A stretch of DNA of 64,000 bases from Lysobacteraceae bacterium (GTDB lineage Bacteria; Bdellovibrionota; UBA1018; JAGTJX01), in contig JAGTJX010000001.1 of the NCBI GenBank assembly GCA_023657465.1, forward strand, positions 772,358 to 836,357, read 5' to 3'. Below are positions 1-49,114 of the stretch, piece after piece; position 1 is the first letter of the stretch; the number at the start of each line of letters is the position of its first letter. Position numbers and translations under genes: made by a program. Below the pieces are notes generated by a model. It did no database searches, was not told the DNA's origin, and saw only the letters and a list, made by a program, of their open reading frames with translations.

Positions 1-802
1 AAAAGTGAATATGAGATCAGAGCGCGGAATCTGGGTGAAGAACTCACTCATGGAAGCGGAGTGGGGTGGAAAGTTTACTGTCATTAATAGCATGGCTGCT
101 CCGAGAGCTGTGGGTGAAGCCAACTTGATCCAAGGAAAGCTGTTCTTCAAAGATAGACAGTTCAATATGCTTTCTGGAAAAGTAAGTTTTGATAATCCTA
201 CTCAGATCAACCCAAGGTTTAATATTTTATCTTCTGCTGAAATTAATAGGACAAAAATTAATCTTGCAGCAAACGGAAGACTCAATGAATGGAGTTTAGA
301 TCTCACATCTAATCCTTCGTTACCCACGAGTGAAATTCTCTCACTCTTATCCATTGGATTTACTTCTGAGGAGTTGAGTAGACAAACGAATGTAAATAGG
401 TCTTCACTCAGTCAGACAGAAGCAGCGACTGTAGTTCTCAATTCACTTAACTTTAATAAAGACTTACAAAACAAAACAGGCTTCGAAGTCCAGCTCAACG
501 AAGCTCAGACGAGTCAAATCGGAAACTCAGTAACTAAACCACAAGGAACAGCAGATCTGTTTGCGTCCCCTAAGATCGTTATTCGGAGAAGAATTGGAGA
601 CCGTCTTAGTCTGAGTGTTGGAAGCACCGTCGGAGTGGGTACAAACATACAGCGGGAAGCGAACGCAGAATATCGACTGAATGATAGTTTGTCGTTTCAA
701 GGTGTGTTCAATGCGTTTGAGCAACAACAGTCAGCTTCATCTGTTTCAACTCAGCAAACATCTTATGGTGCTGATATCAAGGTCCAAAGGAGGTTTAAGT
801 GA
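1..802 (+). CDS. tamB: TamB-family translocation/assembly protein, C-terminal fragment
   Basis: Only the last 265 or so residues are in the window; the frame is open at base 1, so the gene begins upstream. TamB is a long inner-membrane-anchored, beta-rich protein that spans the periplasm and works with an Omp85 partner in outer-membrane biogenesis. The fragment shows the conserved C-terminal (DUF490) pattern: an LPTSEILSLLSIG segment, a stretch beginning ASPKIVIRRRIGD, and amphipathic strands up to the terminal QRRFK. The next gene, an Omp85 protein, starts inside its stop codon (GTGA overlap), so the two are translationally coupled. The family call is firm for the C-terminal domain; the total length is unknown. 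Confidence 0.82.
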   Translation, partial: KVNMRSERGIWVKNSLMEAEWGGKFTVINSMAAPRAVGEANLIQGKLFFKDRQFNMLSGKVSFDNPTQINPRFNILSSAEINRTKINLAANGRLNEWSLDLTSNPSLPTSEILSLLSIGFTSEELSRQTNVNRSSLSQTEAATVVLNSLNFNKDLQNKTGFEVQLNEAQTSQIGNSVTKPQGTADLFASPKIVIRRRIGDRLSLSVGSTVGVGTNIQREANAEYRLNDSLSFQGVFNAFEQQQSASSVSTQQTSYGADIKVQRRFK

Positions 803-3207
803 ATCTCCTGAAGATATTTCCTACAATTATAATAGCATTAACTTCACTCAGTTTTGCTCAAGAAACCAAGATCATCAGCGGTTATCAACTATCTCCTGCG
901 AAGAATAGTTTTCCAGGCACGAGCGAACTCCTCGATAAGTTAGATGAAAAACTCAAGCCTGTTCTTAATGTAGAAATTGGCAAAGAGCCAAGCTCAGATC
1001 GACTCATGAATTTTAAGAAGACGATTGAGAATGTAATCAATACAACAGATCGAGTGGGGGCACGAGTTGTTGATGCACAGACTATGGGTATGGGTGGTCA
1101 GCAAGTCATGCTTCAGTTCAGCATTGATTTAGGTGAGAGAGTTGAGTTTGGGTTTTTAGGTAATAATGTTTATTCCAAATCAGACCTGCAAGACTTAATC
1201 GATGAGCAGAAGCAAATTGGGTTAGGTCGAGACTACGTCGAATCTATTCGAAAAAAAATTATTTCTTTTTATGTAGAAAAAGCATTCTCAAAAATTAAGG
1301 TCAGTACTCGTACTCTGGAAAATCCAAGTATTGCCGAAAGAAAAATCATTTATGTCATAGAAGAGGGTGAGCGCCATCGTATTGGAGAAATACAGTTCGA
1401 AGGTGCAGTTGCTATTACTCAAGAGACTTTGAAGAGGAAGTTTTATGAAAACGCTCCTCCCATTATTGAAAAAGGATATTTCTCAGAGAAAGAAATCGAA
1501 AAAACTTCTCAGAATTTAGTCGAGTGGATTCGCTCTCAAGGATACCTCTCTTCGAAGCTCCTCACGGTTAAGTCAACAGTGAGAGAGAATGAAGCAATCG
1601 TCGATCTTAAAATTTATATCAATGAGGGTGAGCAGACGATTGTTCGAGCGATTCAAGTTCAAGGTAATTCCACTTTCTCTCAAGCAGAGATTCTTCAGAT
1701 GTTGGGTTTAGTAGAAGGAGCACCTCTCAATGTATTCATGTTCAATGATGGACTAGAAGTTGTGAAGCTTGCCTATAGAAACTTTGGTCACCTTGAGTTT
1801 GCTTTTACGAATGAAGGTCAGCCTACTGTGATCCAATACTCCAATAAAAATCGTTGGGCAGACATCAGTATTGAGCTCAATGAAGGCCAAAGGTTTAAAG
1901 CTGGTAATATTACGATTGAAGGAAATGAACTTACGAAAGATGAGGTCATTAAACGTGAGTTGCAATTTGACGAAGGTGAAGTACTGGAAGAACGAAGATT
2001 GTTTGAATCTGAGTCAAGACTCCGACGCTTGGGTATATTTTCAGATGTGAAAACGAAAACTATTCAGAATCCAGTGCATGCTGATGTTAAAGATGTAGTC
2101 ATTCAAGTTCAAGAAGCTTCTCGTGGACTAGCTTCTACTGGTATTGGATATCGAAACGACGTAGGCATTCGTATATTTGCTGATCTCACGTATGCGAATC
2201 TTTTTAAAAGTAACCATACTTTTGGTCTTGGAGCTTCCGTTAATCGAAGGCTGAAAAACGTAGAAAACAGGGTGAGGGATCCAGTCGAAGGTCTCGATTA
2301 CGAAGCTCGGATGAATTACACTTGGCCTTGGTTTTTGGTTCCAGAGCTATCCTTTCGTCCTGAGATTGTTCAGCGCAGATTCCATTATGAGCTCTTCAGA
2401 GATGAAACCACTCAGCTTTTAATGACGTTTGAAAAACCAATCATTAGAAAATGGGGATTATCAGCTGGACTTACCTATTCCATTCAGAGAACAGCTCAAA
2501 CAGATGCCGTGAGCACGAGTGATAATACTCTCTTCACTGTTGGTGCACTTACTCCTAGTCTGACGCTTGATCTCAGGGATTCGCCTTTGAGTCCTACTAA
2601 GGGCTTCTATGGAAACATCAGCTATGAGATTGCATCTCCTGCTTTGGGTTCCCAAGCAGAGTTTCCGGCAATCGCTTACAACCGAATTCTCACTCGTTTT
2701 GATGAGTTTATTCCCATCATGAAGTTTGCAACACTGTTCCTGAGTGTGCGCACAGGTTTTGTAAGGAACTTGATTAGCCCAAGCTCTAATCCTTCTGATC
2801 CACTTAAGGTAGGAGTTCCTCTGTTTAAGCAGTTTGCTCTTGGGGGCATTAATAGTGTGAGGGGATTCCAATTTCAGGGAATTAACATTGGAAACAAGGG
2901 AAATGGGAGTTTGACTGACTTTTCTATTCAAGGAACGCTCACGTATGTGAATTACCGCTCTCAGATTGACTTTGCGCTTTCGGAGTCTGTGAAGTTAGGT
3001 CCGTTCTTGGATGCTGCAAACTTGTTGGTCGATGAGTTCTCTTTCAATCGGAGTATGAAGTTTGGAGCAGGTATTGGACTGCGGTACATGACTCCAATTG
3101 GACCTGCTAACTTCGATTGGGGTTTCAATCTCAATCCTGAGTTTATTCCAAGAACACGGCAGACAGAGTCGTCCAATCAGTTTTATTTCTCACTCGGAAT
3201 TATTTAG
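799..3207 (+). CDS. Omp85-family outer membrane assembly protein (TamA/BamA-like)
   Basis: An 802-residue outer membrane protein expected to insert or assemble other outer membrane proteins. An N-terminal signal peptide (about residues 1-20, cut after SFA) is followed by at least four POTRA-like repeats that can be picked out by their E-G-x-x-x-x-x-x-I-x-I/V-x-G-N patterns. A C-terminal barrel follows, with the Omp85 loop-6 motif VRGF near residue 687. The start is GTG at 799 with an excellent AAAGGAGG site at 786-793. Linkage to tamB argues for the TamA role, but TamA is usually about 580 residues with three POTRAs, so the length is closer to BamA. The last residue is Ile rather than the usual aromatic residue. 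Family is certain; TamA versus BamA is inferred. Confidence 0.85.
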   Translation: MNLLKIFPTIIIALTSLSFAQETKIISGYQLSPAKNSFPGTSELLDKLDEKLKPVLNVEIGKEPSSDRLMNFKKTIENVINTTDRVGARVVDAQTMGMGGQQVMLQFSIDLGERVEFGFLGNNVYSKSDLQDLIDEQKQIGLGRDYVESIRKKIISFYVEKAFSKIKVSTRTLENPSIAERKIIYVIEEGERHRIGEIQFEGAVAITQETLKRKFYENAPPIIEKGYFSEKEIEKTSQNLVEWIRSQGYLSSKLLTVKSTVRENEAIVDLKIYINEGEQTIVRAIQVQGNSTFSQAEILQMLGLVEGAPLNVFMFNDGLEVVKLAYRNFGHLEFAFTNEGQPTVIQYSNKNRWADISIELNEGQRFKAGNITIEGNELTKDEVIKRELQFDEGEVLEERRLFESESRLRRLGIFSDVKTKTIQNPVHADVKDVVIQVQEASRGLASTGIGYRNDVGIRIFADLTYANLFKSNHTFGLGASVNRRLKNVENRVRDPVEGLDYEARMNYTWPWFLVPELSFRPEIVQRRFHYELFRDETTQLLMTFEKPIIRKWGLSAGLTYSIQRTAQTDAVSTSDNTLFTVGALTPSLTLDLRDSPLSPTKGFYGNISYEIASPALGSQAEFPAIAYNRILTRFDEFIPIMKFATLFLSVRTGFVRNLISPSSNPSDPLKVGVPLFKQFALGGINSVRGFQFQGINIGNKGNGSLTDFSIQGTLTYVNYRSQIDFALSESVKLGPFLDAANLLVDEFSFNRSMKFGAGIGLRYMTPIGPANFDWGFNLNPEFIPRTRQTESSNQFYFSLGII

Positions 3208-3233
3208 CCTGAGCTCTCAGTTAGCGAAGTCTT

Positions 3234-3320
3234 CAAACCTTACAAAAGTGTCAGATTCGAAGGTAGTTGTGATGTGTTAATAGCGCCAAACCTGACACTT
3301 TTGTAAGGTTTGGCGCTATT
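3234..3320. repeat. Two interlocking inverted repeats between convergent genes
   Basis: Bases 3234-3254 are a perfect 21-bp inverted repeat of 3292-3312. Bases 3279-3293 are a perfect 15-bp inverted repeat of 3306-3320, with a 12-base loop. The arms are interleaved (A, C, A', C') and A' and C' share bases, so the two hairpins exclude each other or could form a pseudoknot-like fold. The element lies between the convergent ends of the Omp85 gene and the M56 gene. It may terminate transcription from both sides, although no long T run follows either stem. A mobile repeat (REP-like) is the alternative. Confidence 0.75.
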
Positions 3321-3345: not shown

Positions 3346-4929
3346 TTAATCCAACAACTGAGGATTCTTCATAATCAGAATCGCAGCCATAAGTTTAGGT
3401 ATGTAGTTGTTGTCGTTAGTGACACCAGAATCAATAAGGCTCCAGACATCTTTTTTTCCTGTTTTTTCTATAGCCTTAGACACTGCACTCTCGCCACAGT
3501 TGTAAGCAAGGGTAGAGAGCTCCCAACTATTGAAAAGCTTGTAGTTCTTCTTGAGGTATCTCATTGCGGCGTCGGTTTCTTTTTCAACATTGAGACGCTC
3601 ATCTACATTCCCACTCACTTTCATTCCATAGTTGTTAGCTGTGGATTTGATGAACATCCAGAGTCCCGCACCATGTGCGCTGAATGAGTCTTGCCTAAGG
3701 TTTTGGTATCCAGACTCAATGAGTGGAATAGCTTTTAGTTCGCTAGGAACATTGTGCTTAGTAATTTTCGGGTTGATTACGGGCTCATGACTTTTCATTC
3801 GCTCTAAGCTTTCCTTAAAAAACTTGCGTCCCTCTGGTGTTCCGACGAAATGATTGAGTTCTTTCATTACTGAATCATTGATCGTCACCAGTATCCCTGC
3901 TCCTTGATTCGATGTGGTTGCTAGAGCCAAGGCTTCGTCTCTCGTAATTGTTCTGCTCGACGCAATGTCTTTTGCTGCTAAGGCCAGACCTGACATCGTT
4001 ACTACTCCGAGAGTGACAAGTGCTGCGCGGATAAAACTAGCGTTCCATGCTTTGTTTTTCGTTTTCATTTTTTCTATTCTCCATTTGAGGGTTTTGCCTT
4101 CCGTCATAAAGATCAATCCCGTTGCGCATACGAGAGCGTCTTCATGACTTCGAGCGGATTGTGCTACTTGAAACAAGCAGCGTGCATATGCTTGCCACGA
4201 AATTTTCTTTTGGCCTAAAAGAGCTTCGTCGCATGCAAATTCTTGAATGATAGATATCTGTTTACTCCATAGGTGAATAGCTGGGTTCCAAGCGTTGAAA
4301 ATTTTAAGAAGCTGAATTCCCCAGATAAGTTTTGTATCTCCTTGGCGATGATGCTGGAGTTCGTGAAGTGTAGAGATTTTGATTTGATCAGGGTCAGTCT
4401 GCATCGATGAAGGCAATACTGTATAAGCAGTGTTAAATCCAAAATAGGAAAATGGAATACGAATGGATTCATTCATGAGGATTCTGCAGCTACCGATTCG
4501 TTTAATGAGAAATGAATTTTTTAATATTTTATTTAAGACCAAATAGTCCCGTAAAAGCTTCAAGAAATAAAAAAAAGAGATGAGTAGTGCTAGTGAAATC
4601 AGAATGGTACAAAAGTGAGTCATGTTTCTGGGTTTATCTATTCGTATATTCTCTGAAGTAGGTCGTGCTTGGCCGGCGTAAGAAAGTTGACTGACATTTC
4701 TACTAATTGTCTGACGAATTTCAGATCTGCTAAACGGTTTAAAGAATGTTTTCTCAGGCAAGTTTGTAATTCCAATGCTCATCGCAACGGCTATAGCGAG
4801 TAAGAAATGATTCATCGCTAATTCGGACTTTGCGGTGAGGAGAGTGAAGCGCTTGTTTGTGATTCGGAGTGTGAATGAGAAAATACATCCAGAAATGAGC
4901 ATTAGATTTAATAAGAGATAAAAACTCAT
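3346..4929 (-). CDS. BlaR1-like M56 metallopeptidase fused to an MltD-like lytic transglycosylase domain
   Basis: A 527-residue membrane protein. Hydrophobic segments lie near residues 1-20, 42-57 and 107-125, followed by an M56 peptidase domain with the zinc motif HELQHH (189-194) and a downstream E230/D234 in QEFACDEAL. A further hydrophobic segment lies at about 300-318. The exported C-terminal part (about 360-527) is an SLT/MltD-type domain with IPLIESGY (likely catalytic E405), AGLWMFIKSTANNYGM and AYNCGES motifs. In BlaR1/MecR1 the C-terminal sensor is a penicillin-binding domain; here it is a peptidoglycan lyase domain. The gene overlaps blaI by 4 bases, so the pair is co-translated. 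Inference: a cell-wall-damage sensor whose peptidase inactivates the BlaI repressor. Confidence 0.85.
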   Translation of the reverse strand: MSFYLLLNLMLISGCIFSFTLRITNKRFTLLTAKSELAMNHFLLAIAVAMSIGITNLPEKTFFKPFSRSEIRQTISRNVSQLSYAGQARPTSENIRIDKPRNMTHFCTILISLALLISFFYFLKLLRDYLVLNKILKNSFLIKRIGSCRILMNESIRIPFSYFGFNTAYTVLPSSMQTDPDQIKISTLHELQHHRQGDTKLIWGIQLLKIFNAWNPAIHLWSKQISIIQEFACDEALLGQKKISWQAYARCLFQVAQSARSHEDALVCATGLIFMTEGKTLKWRIEKMKTKNKAWNASFIRAALVTLGVVTMSGLALAAKDIASSRTITRDEALALATTSNQGAGILVTINDSVMKELNHFVGTPEGRKFFKESLERMKSHEPVINPKITKHNVPSELKAIPLIESGYQNLRQDSFSAHGAGLWMFIKSTANNYGMKVSGNVDERLNVEKETDAAMRYLKKNYKLFNSWELSTLAYNCGESAVSKAIEKTGKKDVWSLIDSGVTNDNNYIPKLMAAILIMKNPQLLD

Positions 4930-5315
4930 GCCCTCTCCTTATCTGAGATCATTTTTTTGATCGATTCGAGATCTTCATCGGTGAGGTCAACGCTACTGAG
5001 GAGCTGTTTCACTAGGGCAGTAGGTGTTCCATCGAAGACTTTGTTCACTACGTGTTGGACGGTTTTGGCTTCGTAATCTGACTTGGAGAGGAGGGGAATA
5101 TAAGTATGACCTCGTCCTTCTTTCCTGCTTTTTAACACCCCTTTTTGCTCCAAGATGCGCAGGATCGTAGAAACAGATGTGTAGGCGAGTTGTCTATCGC
5201 TAGGTAGGGTCTCAATCACATCAGCGACCGAGCCCTCCTTTATCTTCCAGATAGAATTCATGAGTTCGAGCTCAACTTCGGTCAGTAGCTTTCCGGTGGT
5301 GGTTTTCTTCGTCAT
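4926..5315 (-). CDS. blaI: BlaI/MecI/CopY-family transcriptional repressor
   Basis: A 129-residue winged-helix repressor typical in length for BlaI/MecI. The N-terminal half has the family pattern ELELMNSIWKIKEGSVADV, followed by the recognition-helix region AYTSVSTILRILEQKG. The C-terminal helices would dimerise. It overlaps the M56/transglycosylase gene by 4 bases, as in bla and mec systems where the sensor protease cleaves the repressor. Two perfect palindromes (5326-5341 and 5349-5364) and a TTGACT-N17-TTCAAT promoter lie immediately upstream, so self-repression is expected. The ATG lies 6 bases after the -10 element with no spaced Shine-Dalgarno site, suggesting a leaderless message. The regulated genes beyond this locus are unknown. 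Confidence 0.9.
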   Translation of the reverse strand: MTKKTTTGKLLTEVELELMNSIWKIKEGSVADVIETLPSDRQLAYTSVSTILRILEQKGVLKSRKEGRGHTYIPLLSKSDYEAKTVQHVVNKVFDGTPTALVKQLLSSVDLTDEDLESIKKMISDKERA

Positions 5316-48490: not shown

Positions 48491-49054
48491 ATGAATCACG
48501 GCGTAGACGGAAGAAAATTTGGTAGAAACACATCGCACAGAAAATCGATGTTCAAGAACATGGCAAACGCTGTGCTCACACAGGAGCAGATCGTTACCAC
48601 AGTTGAGAAAGCAAAAGAGATCCGTCGTGTAGTGGACAAGCTTGTCACTCTCGGCAAAAAAGGCGATCTCAATTCTCGCAGACTTGCATTCGATCGTACT
48701 CGTGACGATTCAGTGGTTGTGAAGTTATTCTCAACTCTAGCTGAACGCTATAAAGCTCGCGTAGGTGGTTACACTCGCGTGATCAAATTAGCAGACCGCC
48801 GCCGTGGCGATGCTGCTGAAATGGCAGTTCTAGAGCTCGTAGATCATCCAGTAATTGATCGTAAAAAGAAGGTTAAAAATACTGAATCTGGTGATCCAGT
48901 AGAGCCGACAGCAGAAGGAAAAACTCCTACTGACCCGTTCTCTAAGATGAGAAAACTCTTCTCCTCTAAGAAAAAAGAAGGCGGCGGTACTCCACGTAAA
49001 GCAGCTGGGAAAAATCAGAGATCTGCTCCACGTAAGACCAGTTCTTCTGCGTAA
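48491..49054 (+). CDS. rplQ: 50S ribosomal protein L17 with C-terminal extension
   Basis: L17 lies near the tunnel exit. The first 118 or so residues are canonical ([34 protein letters not shown] in blocks, [26 protein letters not shown]). The remaining 65-70 residues are a Lys/Ser/Pro/Gly-rich tail not found in the typical 116-130 residue protein. It ends the alpha operon and a strong terminator follows after 22 bases. Confidence 0.95.
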
Positions 49055-49076: not shown

Positions 49077-49114
49077 AAAAGCCCATTCGAGAGATCTTCG
49101 GGTGGGCTTTTTTT
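49077..49114. terminator. Terminator after rplQ, probably bidirectional
   Basis: AAAAGCCCA (49077-49085) pairs with TGGGCTTTT (49103-49111) with a partly paired 17-base loop and a run of seven T. The A run on the other side gives a T run for the minus strand, so it may also end the convergent anti-sigma-like gene, whose stop codon is in the T run. Confidence 0.85.

Follow-up and report, generated by a model that had tools for sequence, protein, structure and literature searches.

A private low-copy family of head-to-head palindrome doublets, probably a relict REPIN-like repeat, in the genome of a Lysobacteraceae bacterium

The window analyzed here is a 64,000-nucleotide stretch of contig JAGTJX010000001.1 (assembly GCA_023657465.1; positions 772,358 to 836,357 of the forward strand) from a genome labeled Lysobacteraceae bacterium and assigned to the Bdellovibrionota in GTDB. 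A gene for an Omp85/POTRA outer-membrane protein (799-3207, plus strand; Pfam Omp85, 1.8e-32, and POTRA) is followed by a convergent gene (3346-4929, minus strand) for which Pfam domains indicate a fusion of an M56 (BlaR1-type) peptidase with an SLT transglycosylase. The site under study lies in the 138-bp gap between the ends of these genes, at 3207 and 3346, respectively, and consists of two palindromes, the first starting 24 bp beyond the omp85-type gene and the second separated by 31 bp from the end of the M56/SLT gene. Within 3346-5315, the M56 peptidase fused to the SLT domain is encoded beside a BlaI/MecI-type repressor (Penicillinase_R).

The original prediction for this site, interleaved perfect inverted repeats with arms of 21 and 15 nt, was borne out. 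The arms follow the order A-C-A'-C' on the plus strand: arm A (3234-3254) is the exact reverse complement, over 21 nt, of A' (3292-3312), its partner in a long-hairpin fold, and C (3279-3293) is the exact reverse complement, over 15 nt, of C' (3306-3320), with 9 bases (3292-3293 and 3306-3312) common to the two pairs. Crossed arms of this length are far beyond chance: of 200 sequences simulated for the window with a first-order Markov model, one contained an inverted repeat of 15 nt or more per arm within 100 bp, the longest simulated arm being 15 nt, compared to two such repeats, with arms of 21 and 15 nt, at a single place in the actual window. Folding of the two strands of the site yielded z-scores of -6.8 and -8.5 relative to shuffled sequences, and none of the 200 shuffles equaled the real site.

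Although the arms are real, their description as crossed repeats misses two opposite copies of one palindrome that flank a linker. A palindrome of about 30 bp, of the form AA-N4-ACA-AAAG-TGT-N4-TT, is present twice, head to head, with the centers 53 bp apart. Palindrome 1 (3232-3261) reads TTCAAACCTTACA-AAAG-TGTCAGATTCGAA on the plus strand, and palindrome 2 (3285-3314), the same dyad reversed, reads GCCAAACCTTACA-AAAG-TGTCAGGTTTGGC on the minus strand; both are included in the dyad alignment A2 and score 40.6 and 41.8 bits, respectively, with model R2, of whose training set they are members. The A-A' match arises because the same palindrome is placed twice in opposite orientations, and the C-C' match is palindrome 2 pairing with itself, plus a GC-rich extension of the stem (3279-3320 overall) that is peculiar to the window copy, which has a GC content of about 40%.

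The original prediction also listed, among the possible explanations, a copy of a repeat family, and a search of the genome indeed revealed four doublets and one single palindrome. The doublets are located at C4:775584-775676 (the window copy), C3:336380-336471, C2:201892-201983 (hereafter C2a) and C2:112796-112888 (C2b); two of the other loci were found by a DNA search of the genome and the third one by pattern searches. The doublet model retrieved the same four loci, its training set, with E-values from 1.2e-17 to 1.8e-16, and none further among the 150 scored of 746 first-look candidates, and the single-palindrome model retrieved nine palindromes, the eight in the doublets and C2:202030-202059, among the 150 scored of 332 first-look candidates in the 2.83-Mb genome; because of these limits on scoring, weaker copies could be missed. 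The ninth palindrome continues the alternating orientation at C2a (+,-,+), resulting in three palindromes in a row (C2:201897-202059). Because it was spotted by eye and used in training, the statistics were repeated without it. All six sites in the genome within two mismatches of CTGACACTTTTGTCAG fall within the four doublet loci, and 7 of the 11 exact sites of a looser pattern, AANNNNACANNNNTGTNNNNTT, are family members.

All four doublets lie no more than about 100 bp from a stop codon, with three located within 25 bp of one or overlapping one; one doublet does overlap the stop codon. The window copy is found between convergent genes, and each of the other three is flanked by co-directional genes and precedes a gene start. 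The proteins encoded at or near two of these loci are Omp85, M56/SLT, an ABC-F type ATPase and a fatty-acid hydroxylase, and the four loci have no gene function in common. The C3 doublet overlies the last codons of the hydroxylase gene without truncating it: most of the proteins from 11 relatives end similarly, and some are longer. Ahead of C2b (positions 885-1481 of locus L013), the reading frame may be broken, with one frame of 71 aa that has a signal-like start and terminates at 1100, and another of 69 aa that terminates at 1481, leaving 12 bp to the palindrome.

The architecture of the doublet is uniform across the family. The start-to-start spacing of the cores is 52 or 53 and the orientation is identical in all four doublets; the linker (3262-3284 in the window copy) retains its length, 22-23 bp between the 30-mers, but its sequence is dissimilar among the four copies (alignment A1). 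Within the palindromes, AA, ACA and TT are invariant in all nine copies, and TGT deviates in two (A2). In the eight doublet palindromes, 10 to 13 of the 13 pairs of the 30-bp dyad are formed, with G-T counted; the partners were assigned from their positions, and pairing was scored afterwards. In these palindromes, 84.6% of the cells are paired, compared to 72.5% in shuffled alignments, and two-sided changes were detected in 15 cells compared to 5.7, with none of 500 shuffles reaching as many, although these shuffles ignore how the copies are related. Counted by pairs, the two-sided changes stand out less, with 6 pairs compared to 3.9 in the shuffles, 44 of 500 of which were as high. The covariation was similar with nine palindromes and on doublets. 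Palindromes from different loci are about as similar to one another (20.0 of 30) as those from the same locus (20.75 of 30; 11 of 24 pairings were as high), and therefore, the unit is the single palindrome, the A-A' stem itself not being conserved. On the AAAG-loop strand, G-T cells (8) and A-C cells (9) are about equally common, and thus, there is no sign of function as a one-strand RNA.

The prediction that two strong hairpins compete for the same sequence holds insofar as the long-hairpin and two-hairpin folds are close in energy; both folds exist because one palindrome is placed twice, inverted, but the family-wide unit is the single palindrome rather than the A-A' stem. Under RNA parameters, the window copy favors the long hairpin (clearly on the plus strand, and by 0.4 kcal/mol on the minus strand), as do C2a and the plus strand of C3; C2b and the minus strand of C3 favor two hairpins. 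Under DNA parameters, the long hairpin is preferred in C2a, and the window copy, C3 and C2b prefer two hairpins.

A pseudoknot RNA, another of the originally proposed explanations, is not supported. The two stems share 9 bases, and an H-type pseudoknot was rejected on steric grounds because the loop that would have to span the 21-bp stem, from A' to the unshared part of C', has a length of 0 nt; furthermore, the C-C' extension is missing from the other three copies. A pseudoknot thus appears sterically implausible from the sequence, and is not conserved. Rfam produced no matches in the window at the gathering score, and the sub-threshold matches at the site, mostly to miRNA hairpin models, all fell far short of the gathering scores. 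Crossed inverted repeats result whenever one palindrome sits twice in opposite orientations; therefore, this signature should not be taken for a pseudoknot.

The doublet model, run against 290 genomes of the phylum, matched only in the genome of origin. The single-palindrome model, applied to 367 genomes of the phylum, matched three others with E-values of 0.002-0.004, where 1.8 are expected by chance; one of these weak matches (L101) is a terminator-like hairpin with runs of A and T. A blastn search of phages and plasmids gave no match. The exact doublet pattern was found in none of the stretches of viral_contigs and in 14 of genome_contigs, and a looser pattern in seven of viral_contigs. None of these 21 loci was family-like according to the models (the best score being 25.7 bits with model R1, for L087), and no double dyad was seen in the 14 from genome_contigs, which are single long hairpins or chance occurrences. 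Four loci (L081, L085, L087 and L088; Coriobacteriaceae, Ca. Jettenia, Syntrophomonadaceae) contain intergenic hairpins with TGTCACAAAAGTGTCA-like arms, with no transposase apparent among the nearby ORFs, as judged from the translations. The core 16-mer with at most one mismatch was detected in 27 of 143 genomes, including the genome of origin, and the 31 matches listed outside the latter are outnumbered by those of a reversed-pattern control (table count), so that there is no enrichment of the 16-mer. A literature search on the core 12-mers, judged by titles, did not retrieve any bacterial regulator site.

The C3 hydroxylase was matched in 21 of 58 genomes, including its own, and model R2 found nothing at the orthologous loci in all 11 relatives examined. 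Likewise, none of the 29 relatives' omp85 loci examined (39 genomes searched besides the genome of origin) has a hairpin of -14 kcal/mol or stronger after omp85; R2 yielded two weak matches at these loci, with E-values of 0.009 and 0.02. Given the absence at 11 of 11 hydroxylase loci and the lack of a comparable hairpin after omp85 in 29 of 29, the element is lineage-specific with respect to the relatives compared, which include none of its own family or genus.

Thus, this genome contains a family of doublets with a fixed orientation and spacing, located beside gene ends, with stems that vary but remain paired. We interpret the site in the window as belonging to a private non-coding repeat of low copy number, with four copies, that is probably a relict, REPIN-like element of mobile origin; the mobile origin is suggested by its dispersal, lineage restriction and architecture. 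Such an element would spread, or would once have spread, as a small non-autonomous unit, its palindromes possibly recognized as hairpins in single-stranded DNA, as proposed for REPINs, and the mobilizing transposase would be now lost or not recognizable. The strong hairpins of the window copy may additionally help to stop or position the polymerases converging from omp85 and M56/SLT. The evidence against the REPIN-like interpretation is that there are only nine palindromes, no tag, and no palindrome at the Y1 transposase-like gene of this genome (see below).

The chief rival explanation is a functional paired site, in which a protein or hairpin-binding factor would bind palindromes spaced about five helical turns apart at the four loci, with a role in DNA looping, chromosome organization or regulation. 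The preservation of the linker length with the sequence gone also fits such a constrained site, the spacing being only 52 or 53 at all four loci, and the invariant AA, ACA and TT could be half-site positions. However, the four loci share no gene function, and at one of them, where the neighboring genes converge, there is no promoter that such a site could regulate; the symmetric two-sided changes in the stem agree better with pairing than with fixed letters being recognized, and a conserved regulator predicts copies in related genomes, where none were found. We therefore consider a paired binding site unlikely. Template switching can produce two-sided stem changes without selection, and hence an ancestral short repeat could have persisted as neutral quasi-palindromes, with the arms kept complementary by such hairpin-correcting mutation and with neither transposition nor function involved. 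This scenario seems highly improbable because it leaves unexplained both the four dispersed doublets of one orientation and spacing and the invariant AA, ACA and TT.

A bidirectional terminator, or polymerase-collision site, between omp85 and M56/SLT, as suggested in the original prediction, is possible for the window copy because it sits between convergent genes, which end 24 and 31 bp away; under this explanation, the other copies would be 3'-end hairpins of their respective genes, in agreement with the proximity of all four doublets to stop codons. The site is the strongest hairpin at 66 ORF ends in the window (crude ORF calls), at -26.0 kcal/mol, with the next at -20.0; this value was obtained from the M56 side, and the entry for omp85 shows -1.1, because the 100-nt search stretch cut the hairpin. 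In E. coli, RNA hairpins position and stabilize converging RNA polymerases in head-on collisions, according to PMC13082048, and a strong hairpin between convergent genes resembles the sites described there. Against this explanation, the stem lacks a U-tract on both strands, being followed by GGGTATTTCT on the plus strand and AACACATCAC on the minus strand, so the site is not a canonical intrinsic terminator, and a terminator scan did not report it, whereas the genome does use canonical terminators, as at 49077-49111 of the window, where a AAAAGCCC stem followed by a T-run comes after the ORF at 48491-49054. Moreover, only four such doublets were found, and these are dispersed, all but the window copy being located in front of a gene start, with the flanking genes co-directional; the near-equal G-T and A-C counts provide no strand-specific RNA wobble signal; and no comparable hairpin follows omp85 in any of the 29 relatives' loci, although the convergent M56/SLT neighbor is also missing in all 29. 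Termination as the primary role of the family hence appears quite unlikely. The terminator idea can hold for the window copy but does not explain the family, and any terminator or roadblock effect at the omp85-M56/SLT junction may be secondary, a side effect of the location of the element.

As a small dispersed repeat of probable mobile origin, the element can be compared with several known classes. MITEs of classical DDE transposons are short non-coding elements with inverted repeats. The doublet is likewise short and non-coding, with inverted repeats, but no parent element was seen. A repeated IS-like element of about 2.1 kb, present in multiple copies in the genome, was considered as a parent IS and rejected because its ends are unlike the palindrome. 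This element, probably an IS, contains a 471-aa reading frame and has the ends ATAACTGTCCCGAAGTCCTAGG and ATAGCGTCCGAAAGTCCTTGG; the 16-mer ATGACTCTTTTGTCTG occurs in eight places in the genome, and the four inspected (L017, L024, L035 and L038) are inside it.

REPs, as described in PMC3733652, are found mostly between co-directional and convergent genes, are present in high copy numbers and, in most families, carry GTAG or CGTC tags. REPs are palindromes of 20-40 bp, mainly intergenic and downstream of genes. The element resembles REPs and BIMEs in consisting of 30-bp imperfect palindromes that are located beside gene ends in all four doublets and alternate in orientation at C2:201897-202059. 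In contrast to REPs, it comprises only nine palindromes in 2.83 Mb at the sensitivity of the model, and the flanks of these nine share no tetranucleotide, GTAG being present, by eye, at one of them, on the 3' side. The sole Y1-transposase-like gene found in the genome (C2:508923-509156, L040 1327-1863; 178 aa, Y1_Tnp 26 bits) is IS200-like/RAYT-like, and no palindrome was detected in its 3.2-kb locus, where the best R2 score was 8.5 bits (E 1.5, filters off); with this lone gene not flanked by the palindrome, a REP/RAYT link was rejected.

The closest parallel is with REPINs, which, according to PMC3116915, are inverted REP doublets that keep the length of the spacer more than its sequence, show compensatory changes, and can adopt two folds, a long hairpin or a 'clover'. 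The element studied here shares with them the inverted, hairpin-capable palindromes, a preserved spacing (52-53 in all four doublets) across a spacer of variable sequence, compensatory changes, both folds and an extragenic location. It differs in that there are only four doublets, no REP tag, no adjacent RAYT, a GC content of about 40% and no sign of current activity, and since it lacks the copy number, tag and flanking RAYT of REPINs, we describe it as REPIN-like rather than as a REPIN. More specifically, it could be an untagged REPIN-like doublet of very low copy number, without a RAYT partner, in which the 52-53 bp spacing is kept by a putative hairpin-recognizing protein or transposase of this lineage, a tentative proposal that we regard as rather doubtful. 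If the REPIN-like interpretation is correct, inverted doublets of this type are able to exist in very few copies, with neither a tag nor a linked transposase, and the family would offer a small natural example for studying the origin or extinction of such repeats. Compared with these systems, the element has the appearance of an uncommon and eroded relative of the palindromic repeats known from bacteria, and not of a novel RNA structure.
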